DNA of 22,250 bases. Origin: Clostridia bacterium (GTDB lineage Bacteria; UBA6262; WVXT01; JAUXBS01). This document shows positions 4,362 through 19,009 of the stretch, one piece after another. Under the pieces are notes generated by a model. The model saw only the letters and a list, made by a program, of their open reading frames with translations, was not told where the DNA came from and did not search any database. Position 1 is the stretch's first letter. Each line of letters begins with the position of its first letter. Where the stretch lies: positions 1-22,250 of the forward strand of contig JAUXDE010000014.1 in NCBI GenBank assembly GCA_030618495.1. The letters are read 5' to 3'. The position numbers and the translations under genes are program-made.

Positions 4362-5696
4362 TTATCTTCCCAGCGCTTTGTTAAGCGAAGCTATTGCAAC
4401 ATTATGATCATATAAAGCCTGTAAGTAATTGGTCTCTGACTGGCTTAAGGCAAGCTGCGCGTCTCTTACTTCCACGTCTGAAACCAGCCCGCCTTCATAC
4501 CTTTTCTGGGCTGTCTTAAGGTTATCCTTCGCCGATTCCACGTTCTCTTTTTGCGCCAGTATTAATTCCTCGGATTGTTTTATATTAAAGCATGCCTGCC
4601 TTATTTCCATCTTGATCCCGTTAATAAGCTGCTCCCTGCCTATCTTCACCTGGCTCAGCTGCGCCTTTGACTGCCTTACCTTTCCCATGGCCTGGAAACC
4701 GTCAAACAGGGAGTAATTCAATACCAGCCTTGCGTTCCACGTATGGTACCAGTCGTTTATACTGAAGGATATATCTTCAAACTCGCTGACTCCCTGTATC
4801 CAGTCCAAATTCCCCGTAAGAACCAGGTTTGGCTTGTTGCTTGCCCTGCTGAGACACAATGCAATCTTTGACATTTTCTTCTGCAACTCCATCGTCTCAA
4901 TTTCAGGACGCATTGAAAGGGCTTCGCTTACGGACTTCTCATAGTCAACCTCAACGGGCGAGTATTCCATTTCCGTTGTAAGCTCAACGTCATCCTTCAA
5001 CTCGCTTCCCATAGTATTAAACAACAATTCAAGCGCGAGGTGTCTGCCGTTGCGCGCCTTCAATAAATTTGTTTTTACGTTGATCATCTGCACCTTTGCC
5101 TTGGAAACATCATAACCGGAGACCTTCCCCTGGCTGTAAAAAGATTCGGTAACTTTTAAATGCGCCTCGGTTACCTTGAGCATTTCCCCGGATACGGACA
5201 CCATCTTCTGCGCCAACAGTGCTCCGTAATACGCTTTCTTTACTTTTAAAACCAAATTATTCTTTACCTGGCGGTATCCTTCCCCGGCAAGCCGATAACC
5301 CAACCCTGCCTGTCTATTGGCATTAACAATCTTACCCCAGGTAAAAACAGGCTGCTGAACACTGAATTGCATATCATATGTCTTATCAGCTATCATCGCG
5401 GTAAATTCCCTGGGAAGAAAAGCAGGGTCAATGTTTGATTCATTCTTTTGCGCGATATAAGACATAAAATTCAACTTGGGCAAATACCCGGAAAAAGCCT
5501 CAATCCTTACCCCCTTTGCCTGGCGTATCTTTTCTTCTGCAATGCGTATTTCATGGTTGTTTTCAAGCGCAATCCTGATGCTTTTTTCAAGGGTAAACTC
5601 TTCCGCGCCGACGTCGGTCCCCTTCATGGAAACCATAAACAAAATGGCAATAAGCGCCAAACTGTATTTCAGGCTATTACCTTTCATCCTTATCAT
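4362..5696 (-). CDS. TolC-family outer membrane efflux channel
   Basis: 444 residues with an N-terminal signal peptide (hydrophobic LALIAILFMV core, probable cleavage after VGA near residue 31). Then follow two tandem OEP repeats rich in long helices, beginning LEKSIRIALENNHEIRIA and again near VSEALSMRPEIETMEL; the C-terminal helix ends DVEVRDAQLALSQSETNYLQALYDHNVA. This is the normal length and layout of a TolC protomer, which trimerises to form the exit duct. The start codon overlaps the tetR stop (ATGA), indicating translational coupling. An alternative start is Met4, which has AAGG just before it. Its partner adaptor lacks the helical hairpin, so the docking mode must differ from AcrA-TolC. 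Confidence 0.92.
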   Translation of the reverse strand: MIRMKGNSLKYSLALIAILFMVSMKGTDVGAEEFTLEKSIRIALENNHEIRIAEEKIRQAKGVRIEAFSGYLPKLNFMSYIAQKNESNIDPAFLPREFTAMIADKTYDMQFSVQQPVFTWGKIVNANRQAGLGYRLAGEGYRQVKNNLVLKVKKAYYGALLAQKMVSVSGEMLKVTEAHLKVTESFYSQGKVSGYDVSKAKVQMINVKTNLLKARNGRHLALELLFNTMGSELKDDVELTTEMEYSPVEVDYEKSVSEALSMRPEIETMELQKKMSKIALCLSRASNKPNLVLTGNLDWIQGVSEFEDISFSINDWYHTWNARLVLNYSLFDGFQAMGKVRQSKAQLSQVKIGREQLINGIKMEIRQACFNIKQSEELILAQKENVESAKDNLKTAQKRYEGGLVSDVEVRDAQLALSQSETNYLQALYDHNVAIASLNKALGR

Positions 5697-6292
5697 TTCC
5701 CCACTCCCTTCAGGAACATATCCATAATCTCCGATGATTTTTTATTAAGAATCCTGTTATTAGTCGAAAACAGGTCCAGCCTGCTGAATGTAGTTACCAT
5801 ATTGAGAAGAACTACTCCTGCCACTTCTGCATTTACCTTCCTTATAACCCCCTTATTTATCCCTTCCTGTACAACCTCGGACAACATCTTCATAATCCTG
5901 TGATGCTTCTCCATTATTTTATTATGCTGAACCCTTGTAAAAGTCTTGCCTAAATTCTTGAACTGTTTCATCCATATATTAAAAAATTCTTCATTTGCTT
6001 CCACGTACCCCAGGGTTGAACTAATAAGAGCTTTTAATTTGGTAATGTAATCCTCTTCAGGATTGTTCTTTCCTTCTTCTATTACCGCCTCAAACCTATC
6101 CAGCATATCCATGGCAACCGCAACAAATATCTTTTGCTTGCTTTTAAAATAAAGATATATGGTCCCCTTGGCGACGTTTATTGAATCAGCAATCATATCC
6201 ACCGATGTCTTTTCGTAACCATTCTTAAAAAATATCTTCTTTGCCGCTTCAATGATATTCTTCCTGCGACTTTCCGCGCCTTTTTTTCTCAT
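5693..6292 (-). CDS. TetR/AcrR-family repressor of the efflux operon
   Basis: 199 residues. The N-terminal TetR DNA-binding domain is clear: RKNIIEAAKKIFFKNGYEKTS, then the helix-turn-helix at about 29-53 ending in GTIYLYFKSKQKIF, the family signature. The C-terminal ligand and dimer domain is variable, as expected. It is the first gene of the operon it should control. Its ribosome site GGAGAGG lies between the operator and the ATG. The palindrome at 6306-6329 over the transcription start is the likely autoregulatory operator. Pump induction would occur when a substrate releases the repressor. Confidence 0.93.
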   Translation of the reverse strand: MRKKGAESRRKNIIEAAKKIFFKNGYEKTSVDMIADSINVAKGTIYLYFKSKQKIFVAVAMDMLDRFEAVIEEGKNNPEEDYITKLKALISSTLGYVEANEEFFNIWMKQFKNLGKTFTRVQHNKIMEKHHRIMKMLSEVVQEGINKGVIRKVNAEVAGVVLLNMVTTFSRLDLFSTNNRILNKKSSEIMDMFLKGVGK

Positions 6293-6650: not shown

Positions 6651-7775
6651 ATGGCTGATAGCGCTGTAATCGTTAACAAGGTTGAAACAAAAAAAGACTT
6701 TAATGATTTTCTTCTATTTCCATGGAAGGTTTACGAGGGAAATCCTTACTGGGTCCCACCCCTGCTAATGCAGGTCAAAGAAACCCTTAATGAAAAAAAA
6801 TATCCTTTCTGGCAGCATGCTCAAAGAGAAATCTTCATAGCAAGAAAGAACGGGGAAACTGTCGGGAGAATAGTTGCAATAGTCGATGAAAACCACAATA
6901 AATTCCATGAAGAAAAGATGGGTTTCTTCGGATTTTTCGAGTGCATCAACGACAGCCAAACCGCCGGCGCGCTCTTTGACGAGGCAAAGAAATGGTGCAA
7001 GGCAAAGGGGATGACTCACCTTCGCGGCCCGGCAAGCCCCAGCCTTAACGATGAATGCGCCTTCCTGCTTGAAGGTTTTGATTTAAAACCATCGGTAATG
7101 ATGCCATACACCCCGAAGTACTACCTGGAACTGGCTGAAACATATGGTTTCAAGAAAGCAAAGGACCTTGTGGCTTTGCTCAAGCATGCCTCATGGGGAA
7201 TGCCTGAAAGATTTATTAAATTGATAAACCGCATGAAAAAAAGAATGAATGTAAGAATCCGTTCTTTCAGTTTTAAACATTACGACAAGGACGTGGAAGA
7301 TTTAATGAAGGTCTACAACTCCGCCTGGGAGAAAAACTGGGGTTTTGTACCCATGACCGACAATGAAATGCTTCACATGGCAAAATCCATAAAAATGTTT
7401 GGAGACCCCGACCTTCTCAAAATCGCGGATATAGACGGGAAACCTGTTGGGATATCCATTACATTGCCAAACCTCAATGAAGTGCTGGAAAAATTGAACG
7501 GCAGGCTTGGCCCCGTTGGGTTGCTGAAATTCATGTACTATAAAAACAAGATCCAGGGGACACGCAGTATAATCGGGGGAACTATTAAGGAATTCCGCAA
7601 TACGGGCATCATTGCAGCGCTTTTCTACGAAACGGAACGATCTGTTTTGAGTAAAAAACTCCAATGGTGCGAACTCGGCTGGAATTTGGAGGATAACAAA
7701 CTTATTAATGGTTTTGACATGGCAATAGGAGCTAAAATCTACAAGAAGTACCGGTTCTACGAAATGCCAATCTAA
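6651..7775 (+). CDS. GNAT-fold N-acyltransferase-like protein (stand-alone paralogue)
   Basis: 374 residues of a widespread family usually annotated only as GNAT N-acetyltransferase or hypothetical. Hallmarks are FPWKVYEGNPYWVPPL (23-38), YPFWQHA (51-57), GFFGFFEC (91-98), NDECAFLLEGFD, MMPYTPKYY, AKDLVA and AWEKNWGFVP, then a second half with EFRNTGI, which resembles the acyl-CoA-binding turn of GNAT enzymes. The same motifs in the same order make up residues 1-373 of the fusion protein encoded at 9494-11878, so the two are paralogues. Bacterial ceramide synthases have been reported to be GNAT-like, which makes N-acylation of an amino-lipid a possible role, but the substrate is not visible. 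It is the first gene of a three-gene operon with a strong AGGAG site. Confidence 0.75.
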   Translation: MADSAVIVNKVETKKDFNDFLLFPWKVYEGNPYWVPPLLMQVKETLNEKKYPFWQHAQREIFIARKNGETVGRIVAIVDENHNKFHEEKMGFFGFFECINDSQTAGALFDEAKKWCKAKGMTHLRGPASPSLNDECAFLLEGFDLKPSVMMPYTPKYYLELAETYGFKKAKDLVALLKHASWGMPERFIKLINRMKKRMNVRIRSFSFKHYDKDVEDLMKVYNSAWEKNWGFVPMTDNEMLHMAKSIKMFGDPDLLKIADIDGKPVGISITLPNLNEVLEKLNGRLGPVGLLKFMYYKNKIQGTRSIIGGTIKEFRNTGIIAALFYETERSVLSKKLQWCELGWNLEDNKLINGFDMAIGAKIYKKYRFYEMPI

Positions 7776-7795
7776 CAACCACAAGATATAGCATA

Positions 7796-8497
7796 ATGAC
7801 TATCAAGGAAACGATTAAAGAATCCGGCAAGAAAACCTCCCTTATCCTCTTAAGCGTGCCAATAATCCTCACCCTGTACCTGTATCATGGAAAACACCAT
7901 TTTTTTGAAAAGCGCTTTGATACGCTGGTTAACAATGACCTGTTTGACATGTACTCTCACATGTTCGAATATTTCATGGCATTTGTTTTACTTTTCATAG
8001 TACCCTTTATCCTGATAAAATACGCCTTCAAGGAAAAAATAAAAAAATACGGAGTGACGTTTGGAGATGTAAAATATGGACTAAAGTTTACTGCCATTGC
8101 GATTGTTGTCCTTATCCCCATTCTTATAATCGGAGCGCTTATACCGGACATGCAGGCGACTTATCCGGAAGCGCGAAGTGTCATCGGCAGGCTGAAACCC
8201 TTCCTTTTAATAGAGTTCTTCTACATGTTGTATTATATTGGCTGGGAGTTCTTTTTCAGGGGATATATGCTGTTCGGTCTTAAAGAGAAGTTCGGAAACC
8301 TTTCTGCCATACTGATACAAACAATACCTTCCTGCCTGATGCATATCGGCAAACCTGAAGCAGAAATACTGGGTTCAATAGCGGCAGGAATAATTTTCGG
8401 TTACCTTGCAATAAGAACCAGGTCAATACTGTACCCCCTTCTTATTCATCTGTTTATAGGCATATTCACGGATTCAATGATAATGTCATTATTCTAG
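7796..8497 (+). CDS. CPBP-family (CAAX protease-like) integral membrane protein
   Basis: 233 residues, mostly membrane helices. The family core is recognisable: motif 1 WEFFFRGYM (E151, R155), motif 2 with H183 in MHIGKPEAE, and motif 3 with H218 in PLLIHLFIGIFTD. Motif 1 has a single Glu (EFFFR) instead of the common EExxxR pair, which is frequent in the subgroup carrying HxGKPxxE. Members are intramembrane proteases or related accessory proteins; the substrate is unknown. It lies 20 nt after the GNAT-like gene and 8 nt before the SDR gene. No good Shine-Dalgarno is seen before its ATG, so it probably depends on coupling to the gene upstream. Confidence 0.8.
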   Translation: MTIKETIKESGKKTSLILLSVPIILTLYLYHGKHHFFEKRFDTLVNNDLFDMYSHMFEYFMAFVLLFIVPFILIKYAFKEKIKKYGVTFGDVKYGLKFTAIAIVVLIPILIIGALIPDMQATYPEARSVIGRLKPFLLIEFFYMLYYIGWEFFFRGYMLFGLKEKFGNLSAILIQTIPSCLMHIGKPEAEILGSIAAGIIFGYLAIRTRSILYPLLIHLFIGIFTDSMIMSLF

Positions 8498-8505
8498 GAG
8501 CATTC

Positions 8506-9501
8506 ATGAACGCGCTGGTTACCGGAGCAAACGGTTTTGTTGGGAGCAACCTCTGTGAAACCCTTGTTAAAAAAGGGATAAAAGTCAGGGGACTTGTCAG
8601 GAAAACAAGTGATTTGACTTTCCTGGAAGGGCTTGATATTGAACCTGCATACGGTAGCCTGAATGACAGGAAATCACTCGAAATCGCAACAAAGAACATT
8701 GATATAGTTTATCATGCGGCAGCAATTACAAGTGACTGGGGACCGATGGAAGCGCTCCGCAGGGCAAACGTGGAAGGAACCGGGAATATTCTTGCGGTAT
8801 CCTATGAATCAGGAGTAAAAAGGTTTGTCCACATCAGTTCCATTGCAGTGCATGACTGCCACGGTAAACAGGATGTAGATGAATCTTATCCCTCCAAAGC
8901 CGCATTATCATCCTACTGCATCACAAAAATTGAAGCCGAAAAAATCGTAATGGAATTCTACAAAAAATACAACTTCCCCGTAACCATTATAAGGCCCGGA
9001 GACGTATTCGGGCCAAAAGACAGGATATCCTTCCTGAAAATGGTTAAATCACTCCAAACCCGGACCCTTCCTTATATTAATCACGGAAGAGCGCTCTTCC
9101 CATATACCTATGTTGAAAATCTTGTAGAAGGCATAATACTGGCCGGTGCTAATGAAAAAGCAATAGGGCAGGTTTATATCATCACCGACGGAATCAAGGT
9201 TACCTGGAAGAAATACTTTAAAACCTTAACTGCCGAGATGGGTATTAAAGAACCGGTGTATTCAATCAACGGCAATATCGCCTGCCTCCTTGCCTCTATA
9301 CTGGAATTCATCTACAGGACATTACATCTCAAGAACAGGCCCCCCATTACAAAATACCTTGCTGCTCACCTGAAAGATGATATCCATTTCAGCATCGGAA
9401 AGGCAAGAGAGGAACTTGGCTATAAAACGGAAGTATCCTTCGAAGAATCAATAAAACGTACCGTGCGCTGGTACAGGGAGTATTCGCAGAATATTACTTA
9501 A
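8506..9501 (+). CDS. extended SDR, NAD(P)-dependent epimerase/dehydratase (3-beta-HSD/OleD/CerR/HpnA-like)
   Basis: 331 residues. The Rossmann nucleotide-binding motif TGANGFVG is at 6-13. Catalytic Ser111/Ser112 and YCITK (Y137, K141) give the SDR triad, with RPGDVFGP after it. The C-terminal pattern PPITKYLAAHL...ARELGY-like, ending in a helix with TVRWYRE, is typical of the 3-beta-HSD-like branch that includes OleD, the ceramide reductase CerR and hopanoid-associated HpnA, rather than of sugar-nucleotide epimerases. A keto-lipid reductase is therefore plausible; substrate assignment is inference. It has an AGGAG ribosome site. Its stop overlaps by 8 nt the end of the convergent GNAT-KAS fusion gene. 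Confidence 0.8.
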   Translation: MNALVTGANGFVGSNLCETLVKKGIKVRGLVRKTSDLTFLEGLDIEPAYGSLNDRKSLEIATKNIDIVYHAAAITSDWGPMEALRRANVEGTGNILAVSYESGVKRFVHISSIAVHDCHGKQDVDESYPSKAALSSYCITKIEAEKIVMEFYKKYNFPVTIIRPGDVFGPKDRISFLKMVKSLQTRTLPYINHGRALFPYTYVENLVEGIILAGANEKAIGQVYIITDGIKVTWKKYFKTLTAEMGIKEPVYSINGNIACLLASILEFIYRTLHLKNRPPITKYLAAHLKDDIHFSIGKAREELGYKTEVSFEESIKRTVRWYREYSQNIT

Positions 9502-11878
9502 ACGACTTTAAGACAATTGTAGCATTGAACCCGCCAAAACCAAAGGAGTTGGACAACACCACGTTCACATCTTTCTTTCTTACAGTATTCGGCACGTAAT
9601 CAAGGTCGCATTCCGGGTCAGGATTTTTGTAATTTATCGTTGGAGGAATCATCTTGTTTTGCATAGTAAGTATAACTGCAATAACTTCAACCGCCCCGGC
9701 AGCCCCCAGCAGGTGCCCTATCATTGATTTAGTCGAACTAATCATCATCTTATAGGCATGCTCGCCAAAAGCCTTCTTGATTGCCAGTGTCTCATTCAGG
9801 TCGTTTAATTTAGTGGAAGTGCCGTGAGCATTGATATAATCCACTTCTTCGGCCTTCAGGCCCGCATCATTAATAGCGGCAAGCATGCATCTTATAAAAC
9901 CATCACCACCCTCTGCCGGCGCCGTAAGATGAAATGCGTCGGAACTCATTCCATAACCCGCTACTTCAGCATAAATCCTTGCGCCCCTTGCCCGGGCATG
10001 TTCCAGGGTTTCAAGCACAACGATACCCGCACCCTCGCCCATCACGAAACCGTCACGTTCCCTGTCAAAAGGCTTGCTTGCTTTTTGCGGTTCATCATTT
10101 CTGGTGGATAGCGCCCTCGCAGCGCAAAAACCCGCAAAGGGCAGTGGTAAAATAGGCGCTTCGGTCCCCCCGGCGACCATAACGTCCGCATCCCCCCTCT
10201 CCAGTATCCTGCAGGCGTCCCCGATGGAATGGGTACCCGATGCGCACGCCGTTGTTATCGCCGTCGACGGCCCCTTCAAGCCATATCTTATGGCAATATT
10301 TGCCGCGGGCATGTTGGACAGCATCTTTATCAGGAAATAAGGACTAACCTTACGGGGACCATTTTCAAGAAGTTTGATGTGAGCTTCCTGTATAGGTTCA
10401 TTCCCGGCATGCCCCACTCCTACAATAACGCCTATACGGTTGCGGTCTTCCTTTTCCAGGTCAAGTCCCGAATCCTCTATAGCCAGCTGGCTGGCGGCAA
10501 CGGCGAAGTGGGCGCTCCTGTCCATTTTTTTCGCATCTTTTTTATCAATGTATTTTAATGGATCAAAATTATTTATTTCCCCGGCTATCTGACTGCTGTA
10601 CTTGCTGGCGTCAAAAAAAGAAATCCTGTTAATACCGCTTCTCCCGTTTACCAGTCCCTGCCAGAAATCATCCTTCCCTATTCCTATGGAAGTTATAGGC
10701 CCGATACCCGTAACTACCACCCTGCCGCTTCCGGCGCTTCTTCCGGTAGTTTGGCGCTTGATATCCATTTCATATACTCTGTATTTTTTATACAATTTTG
10801 CCCCGAGCTTCAATCCGCTCTGGATTATAACAGTATTGTCTTCAAGAATCCATGATGCCTCACTTGATTTATAACCTAACTTCCTGCTGCTCTCCAGGAT
10901 CCTCGTGAAAAACAACCCTTCAATTCCCCTGTTCCTGTATTCCTTCACAACCCCCAGGACCATCATGCGCATTCCTTTTATTTTTTTCTTGTAGTAAAGG
11001 AATTTAATAATCCCCGGCAAGTTCAGCTTACCGTTGATTTTCTTAAGAACAGTATTATAGTTCGGAACAACTATGCAAACACCTACCGGCCTGTCATCTG
11101 CGGTTGCGATAAGCGCCAGTCCGGGAGCGAGCAGCGGTTTCAGGGTTTTTACTATATCATAAAACTCCTCATGTGTCCACGGCACAAACCCCCAGTTCTT
11201 TTCCCATGCGTTATTGTAAATCTCTTCAACTTTCCTTGATTCCTTTTCATAATCAGCCAAATCTATCGGCTTAATTTTAATCTCGGGGATCCTCGCCATA
11301 ATCCTCTTTTCCAGCTTCTTGTAACGCTGGATATTTACATTATCAAGCCCCAGCGAAAATGCCACCAGGTCCTTGGCTTTTCTCATCCCGCACTTCTCCA
11401 TTAAATCATGATAATACGGAGGATTGTAGGGCATCATCAGGTAAGGGCTTAAATCATATCCTTCAAGCAGGAACGCAACTTCATCGTTGGTGGACGGGCT
11501 GAACGGGCCGATTATCTTCTCAATATCCTTTTTCAACAACCATTCCTTCACACTGTCAAGCAAGGCCCCGGCAACCTCGTAATCGTTTACGCATTCAAAG
11601 AATCCGAAGAACCCCACTCTTTCTTTCTGGAACTTTATATAATTATAGTCAACCGTTCCCGAAATCCTTCCCGCAATCCTTCCCTCCCTCACAGCAAGGA
11701 ATAATACTTTATCCGCATGCTGCCAGAAGGGATTCTTGTCTCCCAGGACGTGCTTAACGTCCACCTTAAGCCGCGGTACCCATACAGGGTCGTTTTTATA
11801 CAATTCATACGGGAAATTAATAAAATCGTTAAAATCCTTTTTGCTTTCTACCGTCTTGATTGTTAAGGAATTTTGCAT
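9494..11878 (-). CDS. GNAT-fold acyltransferase / 3-oxoacyl-ACP synthase II fusion protein
   Basis: 794 residues in one uninterrupted frame. Residues 1-373 are a complete second copy of the GNAT-like protein (VWVPRL, NPFWQHA, GFFGFFEC, NDEVAFLLEGYD, AWEKNWGFVP, EYRNRGI, KKYRVYEMDI), ending exactly where its stand-alone paralogue ends. A linker of about 12 residues (374-385) follows, then a full-length ketosynthase (386-794). The KAS has the FabF triad C545 (TACASGTH), H685 (NAHGTST) and H722 (GHLLGAAG); these spacings match E. coli FabF (163/303/340). The gating loop GFGGFN is also present. It should extend acyl-ACP with malonyl-ACP. An internal start at Met371 could give a separate KAS, but no clear ribosome site precedes it. 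The start overlaps the folP stop by 16 nt and has GAGAGG upstream, so it is the last gene of the tilS-ftsH-folE-folP operon. Confidence 0.9.
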   Translation of the reverse strand: MQNSLTIKTVESKKDFNDFINFPYELYKNDPVWVPRLKVDVKHVLGDKNPFWQHADKVLFLAVREGRIAGRISGTVDYNYIKFQKERVGFFGFFECVNDYEVAGALLDSVKEWLLKKDIEKIIGPFSPSTNDEVAFLLEGYDLSPYLMMPYNPPYYHDLMEKCGMRKAKDLVAFSLGLDNVNIQRYKKLEKRIMARIPEIKIKPIDLADYEKESRKVEEIYNNAWEKNWGFVPWTHEEFYDIVKTLKPLLAPGLALIATADDRPVGVCIVVPNYNTVLKKINGKLNLPGIIKFLYYKKKIKGMRMMVLGVVKEYRNRGIEGLFFTRILESSRKLGYKSSEASWILEDNTVIIQSGLKLGAKLYKKYRVYEMDIKRQTTGRSAGSGRVVVTGIGPITSIGIGKDDFWQGLVNGRSGINRISFFDASKYSSQIAGEINNFDPLKYIDKKDAKKMDRSAHFAVAASQLAIEDSGLDLEKEDRNRIGVIVGVGHAGNEPIQEAHIKLLENGPRKVSPYFLIKMLSNMPAANIAIRYGLKGPSTAITTACASGTHSIGDACRILERGDADVMVAGGTEAPILPLPFAGFCAARALSTRNDEPQKASKPFDRERDGFVMGEGAGIVVLETLEHARARGARIYAEVAGYGMSSDAFHLTAPAEGGDGFIRCMLAAINDAGLKAEEVDYINAHGTSTKLNDLNETLAIKKAFGEHAYKMMISSTKSMIGHLLGAAGAVEVIAVILTMQNKMIPPTINYKNPDPECDLDYVPNTVRKKDVNVVLSNSFGFGGFNATIVLKSFK

Positions 11879-12735: not shown

Positions 12736-12986
12736 AAATTCCCGTTATTTTTGCAATGGTATTTTGAGCCGCGCCGAAGCAACGAGAGGTGAACATACCG
12801 GGAGTATGTAAGCCGAGCGTTGCAAAGGCACAGGCCAAAAGCCCTTTGCCCTTCGGGAGGCTACATTCCGGGTAACTTCTTCGTTATTTCGTCAGTTACA
12901 ATATCACCACATTGCGCCTTCCTCAAACCTTGAATTTACCTAAGACTATAGCCTCAAAAATAGCGGTAATTTATGTTACAGAGCAC
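12722..12986. repeat. 265-bp element bounded by 31-bp terminal inverted repeats (MITE-like)
   Basis: The left arm 12722-12752 and right arm 12956-12986 are inverted copies agreeing at 29 of 31 positions (outer end GTGCTCTGTAACATAAATT). The interior has no coding frame and contains the large stem-loop at 12753-12849. It fills the gap between folE and folP, and its left arm runs 14 nt into folP. No target-site duplication is evident in the flanks. It could be a small non-autonomous mobile element, or an arm duplicated by recombination. It breaks the folE-folP spacing, yet both genes still read in the same direction. Confidence 0.7.
12753..12849. repeat. long structured stem-loop in the folP leader
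   Basis: Nested pairings: GCAA (12753) with TTGC (ends 12849), TTTTG with CAAAA, GCC with GGC, GCAACG (12779-12784) with CGTTGC (12818-12823), and ACATAC (12793-12798) with GTATGT (12804-12809) around the loop CGGGA. The two 8-nt internal loops face each other. In RNA on the minus strand it would end about 18 nt before the folP ATG. It does not resemble the tetrahydrofolate riboswitch that I know. It could be an interspersed repeat hairpin or a cis-acting leader. Confidence 0.6.
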
Positions 12987-12996
12987 TACCTTGCCA

Positions 12997-13560
12997 TCAC
13001 TTATTGTTTATCAGGGACATGGCTTCATTACGAGTCCGCGCATCCTTAAGAAAAGTCCCGCGTACTGCCGAAGTTATCATCCTGGAACCCGGCTTTTTCA
13101 CTCCGCGCATCGTCATGCAGAAGTGTTCCGCTTCAATAACGACCATTACACCCCGGGCTTCTAACTCCTTCATGATGATATTCGCAATCTGCGTGGTTAA
13201 TCTTTCCTGTATTTGAAGCCTTTTTGCATAAATCTCCACGACCCTTACAAGCTTGCTTACTCCGGCAATTTTATTTTTAAACGGTATATACGCAATATGC
13301 GCCTTGCCTACGAAAGGCAGCATGTGATGCTCACACATCGAATACAACGGGATATCCTTTACAAGTATTATCTCCTCATAATTTTCATGCTCGTAAAAAA
13401 CTTTAAGTTGCTTCTTAACGCTGGCGGAATACCCCGAAAATATTTCTTTATACATCCTGACAATCCGTTCAGGAGTCCCCTTCAGCCCTTCCCTGCCGGG
13501 GTCTTCTCCGATAGCCTCAAGTAACATCTTAACGGCATCCTTTATCTTTTTACTGTCCAA
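12997..13560 (-). CDS. folE: GTP cyclohydrolase I
   Basis: 187 residues; converts GTP to dihydroneopterin triphosphate, the first step of folate synthesis. Zinc and active-site motifs are visible: MCEHHMLPF (C76, H79) and [17 protein letters not shown] (H146, C148), plus GLKGTPERI near the N-terminus. This is the type IA enzyme, slightly shorter than the E. coli protein because of its N-terminus. The start codon is TTG, supported by AGGAAA 8-10 nt upstream inside the end of ftsH; the first in-frame ATG is codon 12, which would cut the first helix. There are only 3 nt between the ftsH stop and this start. Confidence 0.95.
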
Positions 13561-13563
13561 TTT

Positions 13564-15429
13564 TTATTTCCTGCCTTTTTTCCGTTTTTGTACTGTTTTC
13601 TTCCCGGCGGCGGGTTTTTCTTTTTTCGTCTTTTTCACTATTCCCAAAATCCGCGCCACTTCATCCCCGTCAAGCGATTCATTTTTTACCAGCGTATCCG
13701 CCAGTTTCTTCAATTTGCTCCTGTTTTTTGTCAATATCTCTCCTGCTCTTTTTTTGCACGTTTCAACAACTCTTTTTACTTCAGCGTCTATTGTTTCGGC
13801 CATCTTCTCGCTGTACTCCTTACCCTTTGCAATATCCATACCCAGGAAAGTCTCCCCCTCCCTTTCTTTCAGGGTTATAGGCCCTATACGCTCGCTCATC
13901 CCCCACTCGCAGACCATTCTATGCGCCAGGTCAGTTGACCTTCTCAGGTCATTTTCAGCGCCGGTAGTTACTTCCTTAAAAAACAATTCCTCGGCAGTCC
14001 TGCCCCCGAGGAGAACCGTCATCTTATTCATTAGTTCAGACTTGGTGATCAGGTACTTGTCCTCAAGCGGTAGTTGAAGCGTATAACCCAGGGCAGGCCC
14101 TCTCGGTACAATCGATACCTTGTGAACGGGGTCTGTCCCCTCAAGCATGGATGCGGCAACGGCATGCCCTGACTCATGGTAAGCAATAATCTTCTTCTCC
14201 CTTTCGGAAATCACCTGGCTCTTCCTTTCAGGACCGGCCATTACCCTGTCAATCGCCTCCTCCATCTCCTCCATCTCAACGGTTTTCTTATCATGCCTTG
14301 CCGCCAGGAGCGCCGCCTCGTTAACAAGGTTTGCAAGGTCACTCCCCACAAAACCCGGAGTTCTTCTTGCAATAATGCTTAAATCTATATCCTTATCAAG
14401 TTTAACGTTCCTCGCATGAACCTTGAGGATGGCTTCACGCCCCTTTATATCCGGACTGGTAACGGCAACGTGCCTGTCAAACCTGCCGGGGCGCAGCAGC
14501 GCCGGGTCCAGGACATCAGGCCTGTTCGTTGCGGCAATAAGAATAACGCCCTGCCTGGTATCAAACCCGTCCATCTCTACCAGTATCTGGTTCAATGTCT
14601 GCTCCCTTTCATCGTGCCCTCCGCCTATTCCTGAAAACCTCCTCCTGCCAACGGCATCAAGTTCATCAACGAATAACAGGCACGGGGCGTTCTTTTTTCC
14701 CTGGCCGAACAGGTCACGGACCCTGCTGGCGCCTACTCCAACGAACATCTCAACAAATTCCGAACCGCTTGAACTGAAAAACGGCACACCCGCCTCCCCG
14801 GCAACAGCCCTTGCAAGAAGCGTCTTGCCTGTCCCCGGGGCGCCGTAAAGCAGAACTCCCTTGGGAATCTTTCCACCCAGGTTCTGGAACTTCTTAGGGT
14901 CCTTTAAAAAGGATATTATCTCTTTCAATTCCTCTTTCACCTCATCAAGCCCAGCAACGTCATCAAAGGTCGTTTTCTTCTTTTTCTTTGTATCCTGCAG
15001 CTTCGCCTTGCTCTTGGCAAACCCCATCATCTGCTTGCCCCCGCCCTGCATTGAACGTATAAGGAACACCCATACGAGGATAAAAAGAAGAATCGGCCCA
15101 AAATTAAACAGCAGGGCAGTAAGCCAGTTCTTCTCCTTCTTGCCCCTGTACTTCACCCCCAGCATGTCAAGCTCCTCAACCAGCCTTGAATCCGCCACAA
15201 CAACCGTCTTGAAAGAATTCTTCTTTCCTGCGGCATTGACAAAAGTCCCCGTAATGGATTCAGCGCCTATTTCACATTCTTCTACATTGCCTGATTTTAT
15301 ATAAGACTTGAACTCGCTGTAGGATATATCCTCCGGCGGTTTGCTTTTTGTGGACATATTCGCAAACATGAGAGCAGCCAGGATTATAACCACCCATAAT
15401 GAAATACCTTTTAAGAATTTATTTTTCAT
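13564..15429 (-). CDS. ftsH: ATP-dependent zinc metalloprotease FtsH
   Basis: 621 residues; a membrane-bound AAA+ protease for quality control of membrane and regulatory proteins. There are two N-terminal membrane helices (about 8-24 and 104-125) flanking a periplasmic domain. The AAA module has Walker A GAPGTGKT (196-203), pore loop FVG (229-231), Walker B LLFVDELD (to 258) and the [19 protein letters not shown]. The zinc site is HESGH (418-422), with a downstream Asp in TTGAENDL as third ligand. The C-terminal tail is strongly Lys/Arg rich. Its ATG overlaps the tilS stop by 4 nt. Confidence 0.97.
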
Positions 15430-17217: not shown

Positions 17218-18165
17218 ATGGCACAGACTTTAGAATGGAACGGCTCCGGCAACGAGGTTATCAAGGCAATATGCGCGGGAATACACTGGTTTAACAACTT
17301 TGAAAAGGAAGTTGACTCGCTTAATGTCTTCCCCGTACCCGACGGCGATACGGGAAAGAACATGAAGAACACCCTTAATTCAATAAGAAAGTCTCTCCTT
17401 AAGGCGGACAGGAGCTCCGCCAGTGGCGTTCTGGACACTGCCGCCCAGGGCTCGCTCATGGGCGCAAAAGGCTGCTCCGGTATAATACTATCCCTGTTTT
17501 TCCAGGGTTTTGCCGAGAAGATTAAGGACATTGAACACATAAGTATTAATGACTTCGCAGAAGCGCTCAGGAACGCTTCCCACAAGGCATGGAACGGAAT
17601 AAGCAATCCGGTCAACGGAACTATCCTTACCGTTGCCGATGCCGTGGTAAAATCAGCCGAACGCTCAATCAGCGAAGGGAAGAACTTCGAGGATACTTTT
17701 GATAATATTCTTGCCGATTCACATAAGGCGCTTGCTATGACAAAAGACCAGCTTGACGTCCTGAAACAGGCAGACGTTGTTGACGCGGGCGGGCTGGGGC
17801 TTGTTTACTTCATTGAAGGCTTTGTCAGGTACATCAAGGGAATGCCCGTGGTCAGGGAAAAGGCAAAAAGAAAATCAATAAAAGGCGCTTCCAAAACCAG
17901 TTTTACTTCAAAAACCCGGTTCTGCCTGGAATTCATCCTTAACGATGCGCCTCCCGCGCCCGAAACAATAAACGCAATGATAAGCAATAAGGGGGATTCC
18001 CTTATCCTCGGTAAAGTTGAAAAGGGAATATTCAAAATACATATCCATACCAACGACCCGGAGGACGTTCTTGATACGGTCCGGAAATCCGGAAAACCCA
18101 CCCGCATCAAGATTGACGACATGAAGAAACAGCACAGGGATTTTTTGAGGTTAAACAATGAATAA
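17218..18165 (+). CDS. fakA: short FakA-type fatty acid kinase subunit (DhaL plus middle domain)
   Basis: 315 residues. Residues 1 to about 205 are a DhaL (DAK2) kinase domain with the metal/ATP motif VFPVPDGDTGKNM (38-49), GAKGCSGIILS and DVVDAGGLGLVYF. A middle domain follows, with FCLEFIL and FKIHIHTNDPEDVLD, ending in DDMKKQH. This matches FakA of fatty-acid kinase, which phosphorylates FakB-bound fatty acid to acyl-phosphate. The well-studied S. aureus FakA is about 548 residues; the C-terminal DegV-like domain is missing here, and the stop overlaps the next gene, a DegV/FakB. The start at MAQT gives the usual distance to the DGDTG motif, so the leaderless promoter reading is well supported. 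Confidence 0.85.
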   Translation: MAQTLEWNGSGNEVIKAICAGIHWFNNFEKEVDSLNVFPVPDGDTGKNMKNTLNSIRKSLLKADRSSASGVLDTAAQGSLMGAKGCSGIILSLFFQGFAEKIKDIEHISINDFAEALRNASHKAWNGISNPVNGTILTVADAVVKSAERSISEGKNFEDTFDNILADSHKALAMTKDQLDVLKQADVVDAGGLGLVYFIEGFVRYIKGMPVVREKAKRKSIKGASKTSFTSKTRFCLEFILNDAPPAPETINAMISNKGDSLILGKVEKGIFKIHIHTNDPEDVLDTVRKSGKPTRIKIDDMKKQHRDFLRLNNE

Positions 18166-19009
18166 AATAGCCGTGGTAACAGACAGTACCGCAGACCTGC
18201 CAAAAGAACTGGCAGAAAAAAATAACATCTCGGTTATACCCCTTAAGGTTTTCTTCGGCGACGATGAATACCTTGACGGGGTGAACCTGCCCCACGGGGA
18301 ATTCATAAAGAAACTAAAAACCTCCGAAGTATTCCCAACCACCTCCCAGCCGTCTCCGGGAGAGTTCATGATGCTCTACAAAAAACTTGCCGAACAGGGA
18401 TACGATAAAATAATATCCCTGCACATATCTTCCAAACTAAGCGGCACGGTGGATTCCGCGAAGATGGCAAAACCGATGGTAAAAGACATTGACATAAGAA
18501 TCGTTGACTCACTTAACACCTCTCTCGGATTGGGACTGCTTGCCCTCAGGGCCTCATCCCTGGCAAAAGACACCGGTAATATAGATGAACTTTTAAAAAC
18601 AATAGAACCGGAAATTAAAGGCATTAAGATATTCTTCTCCGTCAGTTCCCTGGATCACCTCATCAAGAACGGCAGGATAGGAAAAGCGCAGGGTTTCTTC
18701 GGAAACCTGCTGGACCTGAAACCCCTTCTGGCCATTCAGGACGGTCTAGGGGAAATAATCCCCCTCAAGAAGGTAAAAGGCAAGGACAAAGTAGTTGATG
18801 AAATAATCGGCCTGATAACGAACAGTTATGAAAAGAACAAATGCAAGTACGGAATCGGTATAGTTCACAGCGGCATGGAGGAAGAGGCAAAATACATACA
18901 AAAAACGTTATCTGAAAAAATAGGCAACGAAACTATCATCACCGGCAACGTTGGCGCCGTTATCGGTTCTCATGTCGGGCCCGAAGTCATCGGCATTGGA
19001 ATATATTAA
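18158..19009 (+). CDS. fakB: FakB/DegV-family fatty acid-binding protein
   Basis: 283 residues, the normal DegV length. Motifs: VTDSTADLP near the N-terminus, TSQPSPGEF (62-70), SSKLSGTVDSA (91-101), a VDS loop, LIKNGRIGKAQG, and near the C-terminus GAVIGSHVGPEVIGIG. These are the residues that hold the fatty acid carboxylate in FakB proteins. It should present a bound fatty acid to the FakA product for phosphorylation. The gene overlaps fakA by 8 nt with GAGG upstream, so stoichiometric, coupled expression is expected. No obvious terminator follows. Confidence 0.88.
   Translation: MNKIAVVTDSTADLPKELAEKNNISVIPLKVFFGDDEYLDGVNLPHGEFIKKLKTSEVFPTTSQPSPGEFMMLYKKLAEQGYDKIISLHISSKLSGTVDSAKMAKPMVKDIDIRIVDSLNTSLGLGLLALRASSLAKDTGNIDELLKTIEPEIKGIKIFFSVSSLDHLIKNGRIGKAQGFFGNLLDLKPLLAIQDGLGEIIPLKKVKGKDKVVDEIIGLITNSYEKNKCKYGIGIVHSGMEEEAKYIQKTLSEKIGNETIITGNVGAVIGSHVGPEVIGIGIY

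Follow-up and report, generated by a model that had tools for sequence, protein, structure and literature searches.

A gene fusion of a bacterial ceramide synthase family protein and a FabF-type ketosynthase in an uncultivated Clostridia bacterium

Results

Gene organization of the fusion

We analysed a stretch of 22,250 nt from Clostridia bacterium (assembly GCA_030618495.1, contig JAUXDE010000014.1), referred to as the window in the following. It harbors a gene that joins the coding regions for a member of the bacterial ceramide synthase (CerS) family and for a FabF-type beta-ketoacyl-acyl carrier protein (ACP) synthase II (KAS II). A preliminary description, made from the DNA letters, had located the open frame correctly, without giving its strand. 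The parts of the gene are:

9494–11878, minus strand: fusion gene, a single frame of 794 amino acids (aa) with ATG start and 0 internal stops
10763–11878, minus strand: residues 1–372, CerS/bCerS/YghO family, tandem GNAT fold (by identity to YghO and to cluster proteins, AlphaFold2 model, and fold search)
10724–10762, minus strand: residues 373–385, short linker, poorly kept between both fusion genomes
9497–10723, minus strand: residues 386–794, FabF-type KAS II domain (TIGR03150, 627 bits; catalytic residues)
10409–10411, minus strand: His490, at the position of Ile108 of E. coli FabF, the acyl-pocket gate (GVGHAGN versus GSGIGGL)

The fusion is the last gene of the minus-strand run tilS-ftsH-folE-folP-fusion. 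The first 16 bases of the gene overlap with the end of folP, and the start is preceded by AGAGGTGATAA. When the 794-aa protein was searched with Pfam and NCBIfam, the CerS and ketosynthase (KS) regions were the only domains, and ACP, acyltransferase, or other polyketide synthase (PKS) domains were not found. The full-length AlphaFold2 model was poor in the KS half (pLDDT 25–50), for which the alignment contained no rows, and the arrangement of the domains was not read from this model.

The fusion is present in a second species

The same in-frame fusion was found in genome G001, a second species of the genus; the N-terminal halves of the two proteins are 73% identical and their KS parts 80%. 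The source genome has 1.69 Mb and is 98% complete, while G001 is 76% complete; genome-wide statements in this work rest on homology and profile searches of the genome contigs. In G001 a contig break falls inside the KS part of the gene; the ends of the two contigs overlap exactly by 97 bases, as expected of an assembly-graph break. The flanking genes match those of the window, with folP, folE, and ftsH on one side and the genes for the CerR-like reductase, the CPBP protein, CerS2, and the TetR regulator (all described below) on the other side.

A base error that merges two genes, or synthesis of the KS from an internal start, could mimic a fusion. The N-terminal part ends like its paralogue at 6651–7775 (KKYRxYEM), as described before, the stand-alone relatives all have a stop codon at this same point, and Met371 could start translation in the window. 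However, the two halves are in frame in two independent genomes, the sequence of the linker differs between them, and Met371 is replaced by Thr in G001; an error at one base and an internal start that is conserved are therefore both unsupported. No clear Shine-Dalgarno site was seen for Met371 in the window. A stop or frameshift between the domains was absent from the G001 fusion. Together with the exact contig overlap and the matching flanks in G001, these findings largely refute an artefact of assembly or annotation, which we regard as very improbable. Since the second genome has the fusion with the same neighbours, we concluded that it is real and conserved and due neither to chance nor to assembly, and that the view of a clean gene fusion was right.

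As synonymous divergence (dS) was saturated between both species, the comparison was made by nonsynonymous divergence (dN) only. The fused KS had a dN of 0.113, compared to 0.124 in the housekeeping FabF, and the value of the CerS half was 0.167. Judged from the values for the KS and the CerS half, purifying selection acts on both halves of the fusion.

The N-terminal half belongs to the ceramide synthase family

No Pfam or NCBIfam model matched residues 1–372. A tblastn search against plasmids with the N-terminus of the fusion retrieved E. coli YghO (32% identity over 373 aa, E 1e-65) as well as unnamed or "GNAT" proteins of Streptomyces, Rubrobacter, and Roseomonas. Identity to proteins of spt-cerS-cerR clusters was 34–38% (Rubrobacter 37.5%, Streptomyces 34.5%). 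The homologues of Streptomyces and Rubrobacter are encoded in a three-gene run together with a pyridoxal phosphate-dependent aminotransferase (alpha-oxoamine synthase, AOS) and an NAD-dependent epimerase/oxidoreductase, and E. coli yghO adjoins genes for a fatty acyl-AMP ligase, an epimerase, an ACP, and an aminotransferase. These neighbours of yghO are the ceramide genes aasR, cerR, acpR, and spt (PMC9386255, PMC11324152). YghO (ECD_02850) is the E. coli counterpart of Caulobacter CC_1154 (PMC9386255), an N-acyltransferase that is required for dihydroceramide formation (PMC9386255, PMC11324152), and bCerS and CerR have been described as bacterial ceramide enzymes (PMC11087976). An AOS/Spt gene was present in the examined stretch at 98 of the 157 CerS loci and a CerR homologue at 93, with some of the loci overlapping.

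All residues invariant among 71 aligned family members (for example G70 R71, N131, Y156, N228, E238, R304, W343, N348) are kept in the fusion. The AlphaFold2 model of the N-terminal half, for which the alignment comprised these 71 members with plasmid-derived rows left out, is a confident tandem GNAT (mean pLDDT 94.5). The best match in a fold search was the tandem GNAT 7q3a (Z 24.7, 3.3 A over 304 residues), and 5kga reached Z 23. The structural matches also comprised N-myristoyltransferases (Z about 16), enzymes that transfer long acyl chains to amines. By homology and predicted fold, residues 1–372 thus form a tandem GNAT that belongs to the CC_1154/YghO family of bacterial ceramide synthases. 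The initial label "GNAT-like" is in line with the model and the fold search, and had missed the identity as a CerS/YghO family member. We infer a ceramide synthase activity for this half and, since it belongs to this family, a sphingoid base is its likely acceptor.

The C-terminal half is a KAS II with an altered gate residue

Residues 386–791 matched TIGR03150 (fabF) with 627 bits at a cut-off of 494. C545, H685, and H722 align with C163, H303, and H340 of E. coli FabF, in agreement with the complete KAS II and the Cys-His-His triad noticed earlier, and the equivalents of K335 and of the F400 gate (GFGG loop) are kept as well. The fused KS is about 50% identical to E. coli FabF and 60% identical to the housekeeping FabF of the same genome. 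At the position of Ile108 both fused KSs have a His, while I, L, V, or M was present in 32 of 32 other sampled FabFs. A hydrophobic residue at this position, typical but not strictly defining of FabF, is thus absent. I108 is a gating residue of the FabF acyl pocket (PMC7138838), and the exchange I108F changes this pocket (PMC3996569). His490 may therefore hint at an altered chain specificity of the fused KS.

The G+C content of the KS half (window positions 9600–10700) reaches up to 55%, compared to about 43% in the CerS half and the neighbouring genes; codon usage, or acquisition of the KS from a foreign source, might account for the difference.

FabF-like KSs are also encoded convergent with or near cerR-spt-cerS clusters in genome G265 (L234:10774–12036, minus strand) and in Nitrospirae (L188:7778–9091, minus strand). 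Both have Arg at the Ile108 position and are 60% alike mutually. Because they are only about 40% identical to the fused KS, they are a parallel to it and not its kin, and may represent a separate link of a KS to sphingolipid synthesis.

Origin and spread of the fusion

The phylum-level group that we examined comprised six genomes of two families, with G002–G005 forming the sister family. In the sister family, the orthologue of the fusion N-terminus is a stand-alone gene that ends at the same residue and occupies the same position, flanked by the CerR-like gene and folP. Each of these genomes has no other full-length CerS, and Spt-like and CerR-like genes are present in them as well. In the CerS tree, a supported clade united the N-termini of the fusions with the CerS of the sister family and of Elusimicrobiota, and CerS2 fell into a different clade. 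Since the sister-family orthologues stand alone at the same locus and the tree agrees, our reading of these comparisons is that the KS was joined to CerS in this genus.

These data also bear on the question whether the N-terminal half could be an N-acyltransferase for another amine, such as an amino acid or a different long-chain base, and thus make a different acyl amide. The family is large and multi-copy, 59 of 157 loci had no AOS gene in the examined stretch, the window itself has two divergent members, and Spt is encoded outside the fusion locus. On the other hand, the N-terminal half keeps all family-invariant residues, and both its locus and the tree mark it as the orthologue of the one full-length CerS of the sister genomes, which have Spt-like and CerR-like genes. 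We therefore consider another amine as acceptor to be unlikely.

In the KS tree, the two fused KSs formed one long-stemmed clade near, not inside, the FabFs of the order. Because of this position, the fused KS is an old or an acquired paralogue. A recent duplication of the housekeeping FabF as its source found no support, in view of the 60% identity and the separate stem. No donor of the KS was found among 366 genomes, with the best match outside the phylum at 60%.

We looked for the CerS family and a KS in one protein, as had been suggested. Outside the two genomes of this genus, no CerS with a C-terminal KS was seen in about 350 genomes that carry the family. These were represented by the listed, stronger matches, which came from 138 of 386 genomes sampled across the domain and from 212 of 294 Elusimicrobiota genomes, and 80 loci of named genomes contained no further fusion. 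Long CerS frames in G366 (717 aa), G337 (661 aa), and G107 (554 aa) were discarded as fusions due to the lack of a KS match and of a C-terminal extension; the N-terminal extension of the G366 protein is a low-complexity translation of G+C-rich DNA. The earlier statement that no enzyme with this architecture has been described holds, as far as we searched, for the pair of CerS and FabF-type KS.

Neighbouring genes and ceramide genes of the genome

The genes downstream of the fusion are:

8506–9501, plus strand: NAD-dependent epimerase-fold reductase, CerR-related (26–28% identity to CerR of the Streptomyces and Rubrobacter clusters)
7796–8497, plus strand: gene of the CPBP intramembrane protease family (PF02517), with CerS2 on one side and the CerR-like gene on the other
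6651–7775, plus strand: CerS2, second, stand-alone member of the ceramide synthase family (47% identity to the fusion N-terminus)
5693–6292, minus strand: TetR regulator

CerS2, the CPBP gene, and the CerR-like gene form a plus-strand array (window positions 6651–9501) that is convergent with the fusion, and the CerR-like gene overlaps the stop of the fusion by 8 bases. A CerR-like gene was found beside cerS in 5 of 5 relatives. A designation of the gene as "hopanoid-associated epimerase" HpnA was not adopted, as the match of 175 bits was far under the cut-off of 368. CerS2 groups with TetR-adjacent copies of other phyla, of which one in G120 is 60% identical to it, and may act in the synthesis of a different acyl amide. 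The CPBP gene lies beside the CerR-like gene in all genomes of the phylum-level group examined; the best NCBIfam match of its product was archaeomyxosortase MrtA with 88 bits (cut-off 200). In G005 the pair of CPBP and CerR-like genes is tandemly duplicated (L041:11215–12714 and 12945–14738), with a shorter CerR of 238 aa in the first copy. The FtsH of G002 (L039:12769–16056, minus strand) harbors an intein (PF14890, residues 263–726) with a LAGLIDADG domain inside its AAA domain, and the FtsH of the window has no intein.

The genome contains one AOS gene (C140:7305–8642), whose product had serine palmitoyltransferase as best NCBIfam match (528 bits, equivalog cut-off 640). It is flanked by what we take, from the translations, to be pyrD-like and cdaA-like genes. 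A second CerR-like gene is located on contig C154. A fab cluster on contig C164 encodes a FabF (the one with 60% identity to the fused KS), identified by homology, PlsX and AcpP, identified by search, and presumably, judged from translations, also FabH, FabD, and FabG. Because the genome has Spt-like, CerR-like, CerS-family, and fab genes, a complete ceramide pathway is plausible.

An AMP-binding synthetase was not detected in the fusion genomes

The AMP-binding domain PF00501 was not found in either of the two fusion genomes, while it was present in 4 of 4 sister-family genomes with stand-alone CerS. In a control search the domain was recovered in 12 of 14 known genomes. The PF00501 protein of G002 most resembled a long-chain fatty-acid-CoA ligase, with 468 bits at a cut-off of 476. 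The fusion genomes were thus the only two of the phylum-level group examined without a detected AMP-binding acyl-CoA/ACP synthetase.

FakA-like (DAK2) and DegV/FakB genes lie side by side on the plus strand of the window (17218–19009). They possibly encode a fatty acid kinase, and exogenous fatty acids could enter as acyl phosphate via PlsX.

Discussion

Proposed function of the fusion

Without a PF00501 enzyme, the chains used in N-acylation would be expected to arrive as acyl-ACP, supplied by type II fatty acid synthesis (FAS II). The reading that we prefer, with about even confidence, is that the fusion would act as an elongation-coupled bifunctional ceramide synthase/KAS II that uses acyl-ACP instead of acyl-CoA. 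The FabF domain would lengthen a FAS II acyl-ACP by one C2 unit. The usual reactions of FabG, FabZ, and enoyl reductase would then precede transfer of the elongated chain, and transfer at an earlier stage is less likely. The tandem-GNAT half would N-acylate 3-oxosphinganine or sphinganine with the chain from ACP, and the sphingoid base would be supplied by the Spt encoded elsewhere in the genome. In this way the tether would set the N-acyltransferase at the site of long acyl-ACP synthesis, and ceramide formation would rely on acyl-ACP. A more far-reaching version, which we put forward tentatively, is a self-contained, acyl-CoA-independent CerS in which a dedicated KAS II with an altered pocket determines how long or how oxidized the N-acyl chain is (perhaps beta-keto or 3-hydroxy) immediately before transfer to the sphingoid base. 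The choice of the amide chain would then be built into the amide-forming enzyme.

Several points weigh against this proposal. The fusion and the loss of PF00501 are one correlated observation from a single event in one genus with two genomes and may be a coincidence, and one of these genomes, G001, is rather incomplete. The product of FabF is a beta-ketoacyl-ACP, which needs three more enzymes before it is a saturated chain, so that there is no obvious direct hand-off from KS to CerS. At best, hand-over would rely on ACP traffic common to both halves; the exception would be a use of 3-oxo or 3-hydroxy chains. The genome has its separate housekeeping FabF on C164, the Spt gene is not at the fusion locus, and the Spt-like protein scored below the equivalog cut-off (528 versus 640). 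A second CerS-family gene is only 3 kb away, and either copy may make the bulk of ceramide. Finally, the function given here to the fusion is a prediction.

The fact that the FabF product is not directly transferable without FabG, FabZ, and enoyl reductase, which is established FAS II chemistry, would also fit a fusion without any channelling. The KAS II would then be tied to CerS only for co-expression or placement at the membrane, and the halves would work independently, with the KS adding elongation capacity to FAS II. The full FabF profile with intact catalytic residues and the short, unconserved linker agree with such an arrangement. However, with 60% identity and a long stem of its own in the tree, the KS did not arise from the housekeeping FabF by recent copying, the His at the gate in both species suggests a substrate role of its own, and the fusion was retained since the species split (80% KS identity). 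Independent halves seem to us a somewhat doubtful explanation.

The CerS half could also capture the fresh beta-keto chain, or the 3-hydroxy chain after FabG, and form N-(3-oxoacyl) or N-(3-hydroxyacyl) sphingoid bases. A condensing enzyme and an N-acyltransferase are indeed physically tethered, and His490, a polar residue at the gate, would be in keeping with chains that are oxygenated or unusual in another way. Against this, the KS product on free ACP meets FabG in the cytosol, and the protein has no ACP or ketoreductase domain, which makes direct capture quite unlikely. The preliminary description had suggested that an elongated or beta-keto chain is passed to an acceptor amine. Transfer to an amine is consistent with our findings and would follow from the predicted function, while the delivery of a beta-keto chain has no direct support.

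With regard to acyl-ACP-dependent, elongation-coupled N-acylation, which it predicts, the fusion is a test case for the acyl donor (acyl-CoA versus acyl-ACP) and for the control of N-acyl chain length in bacterial ceramide synthases. It also suggests that a small, uncultivated lineage of phylum rank makes sphingolipids, and illustrates how a single fusion event can rewire a pathway of membrane lipids.

Comparison with known systems

Both protein families joined in this CerS-KAS II are known, and the proposed mechanism is plausible. The fusion shares with CerS/bCerS (CC_1154; YghO, ECD_02850, of E. coli BL21) the homology over the full N-terminal half and the invariant residues, and as in these systems, Spt-like and CerR-like genes are present in the genome. 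Unlike them, it has an additional C-terminal KAS II and is located in a folate operon (folE-folP-fusion) and not beside spt. The CerS systems of Caulobacter and E. coli have a PF00501 synthetase (AasR), whereas the host of the fusion has none that we detected. With FabF, the fused KS has in common a score above the TIGR03150 cut-off, the Cys-His-His triad, the Lys, and the Phe400 gate. It differs from FabF by not standing alone, by the His at the Ile108 gate, and by being a paralogue besides the housekeeping FabF at the fab locus.

GNAT and KS domains share polypeptides in some polyketide synthases, where they belong to other families and occur together with ACP domains. GNAT-containing PKS loading modules, such as that of curacin CurA, thus resemble the fusion in bringing GNAT and KS together in one system, but they have a single GNAT of another family and ACP domains, while in the fusion the GNAT is a tandem one of the CerS family and an ACP is missing. 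SgaAB of Pseudomonas fluorescens MYb115 consists of a polyketide synthase and an alpha-oxoamine synthase and makes sphinganines (PMC12134224). As proposed for the fusion, it is a condensing-enzyme system devoted to the supply of chains for sphingolipids. However, in SgaAB a multidomain PKS serves the AOS reaction, the first step, whereas in the fusion, which has no PKS domains, a FabF-type KS is placed at the N-acylation step.

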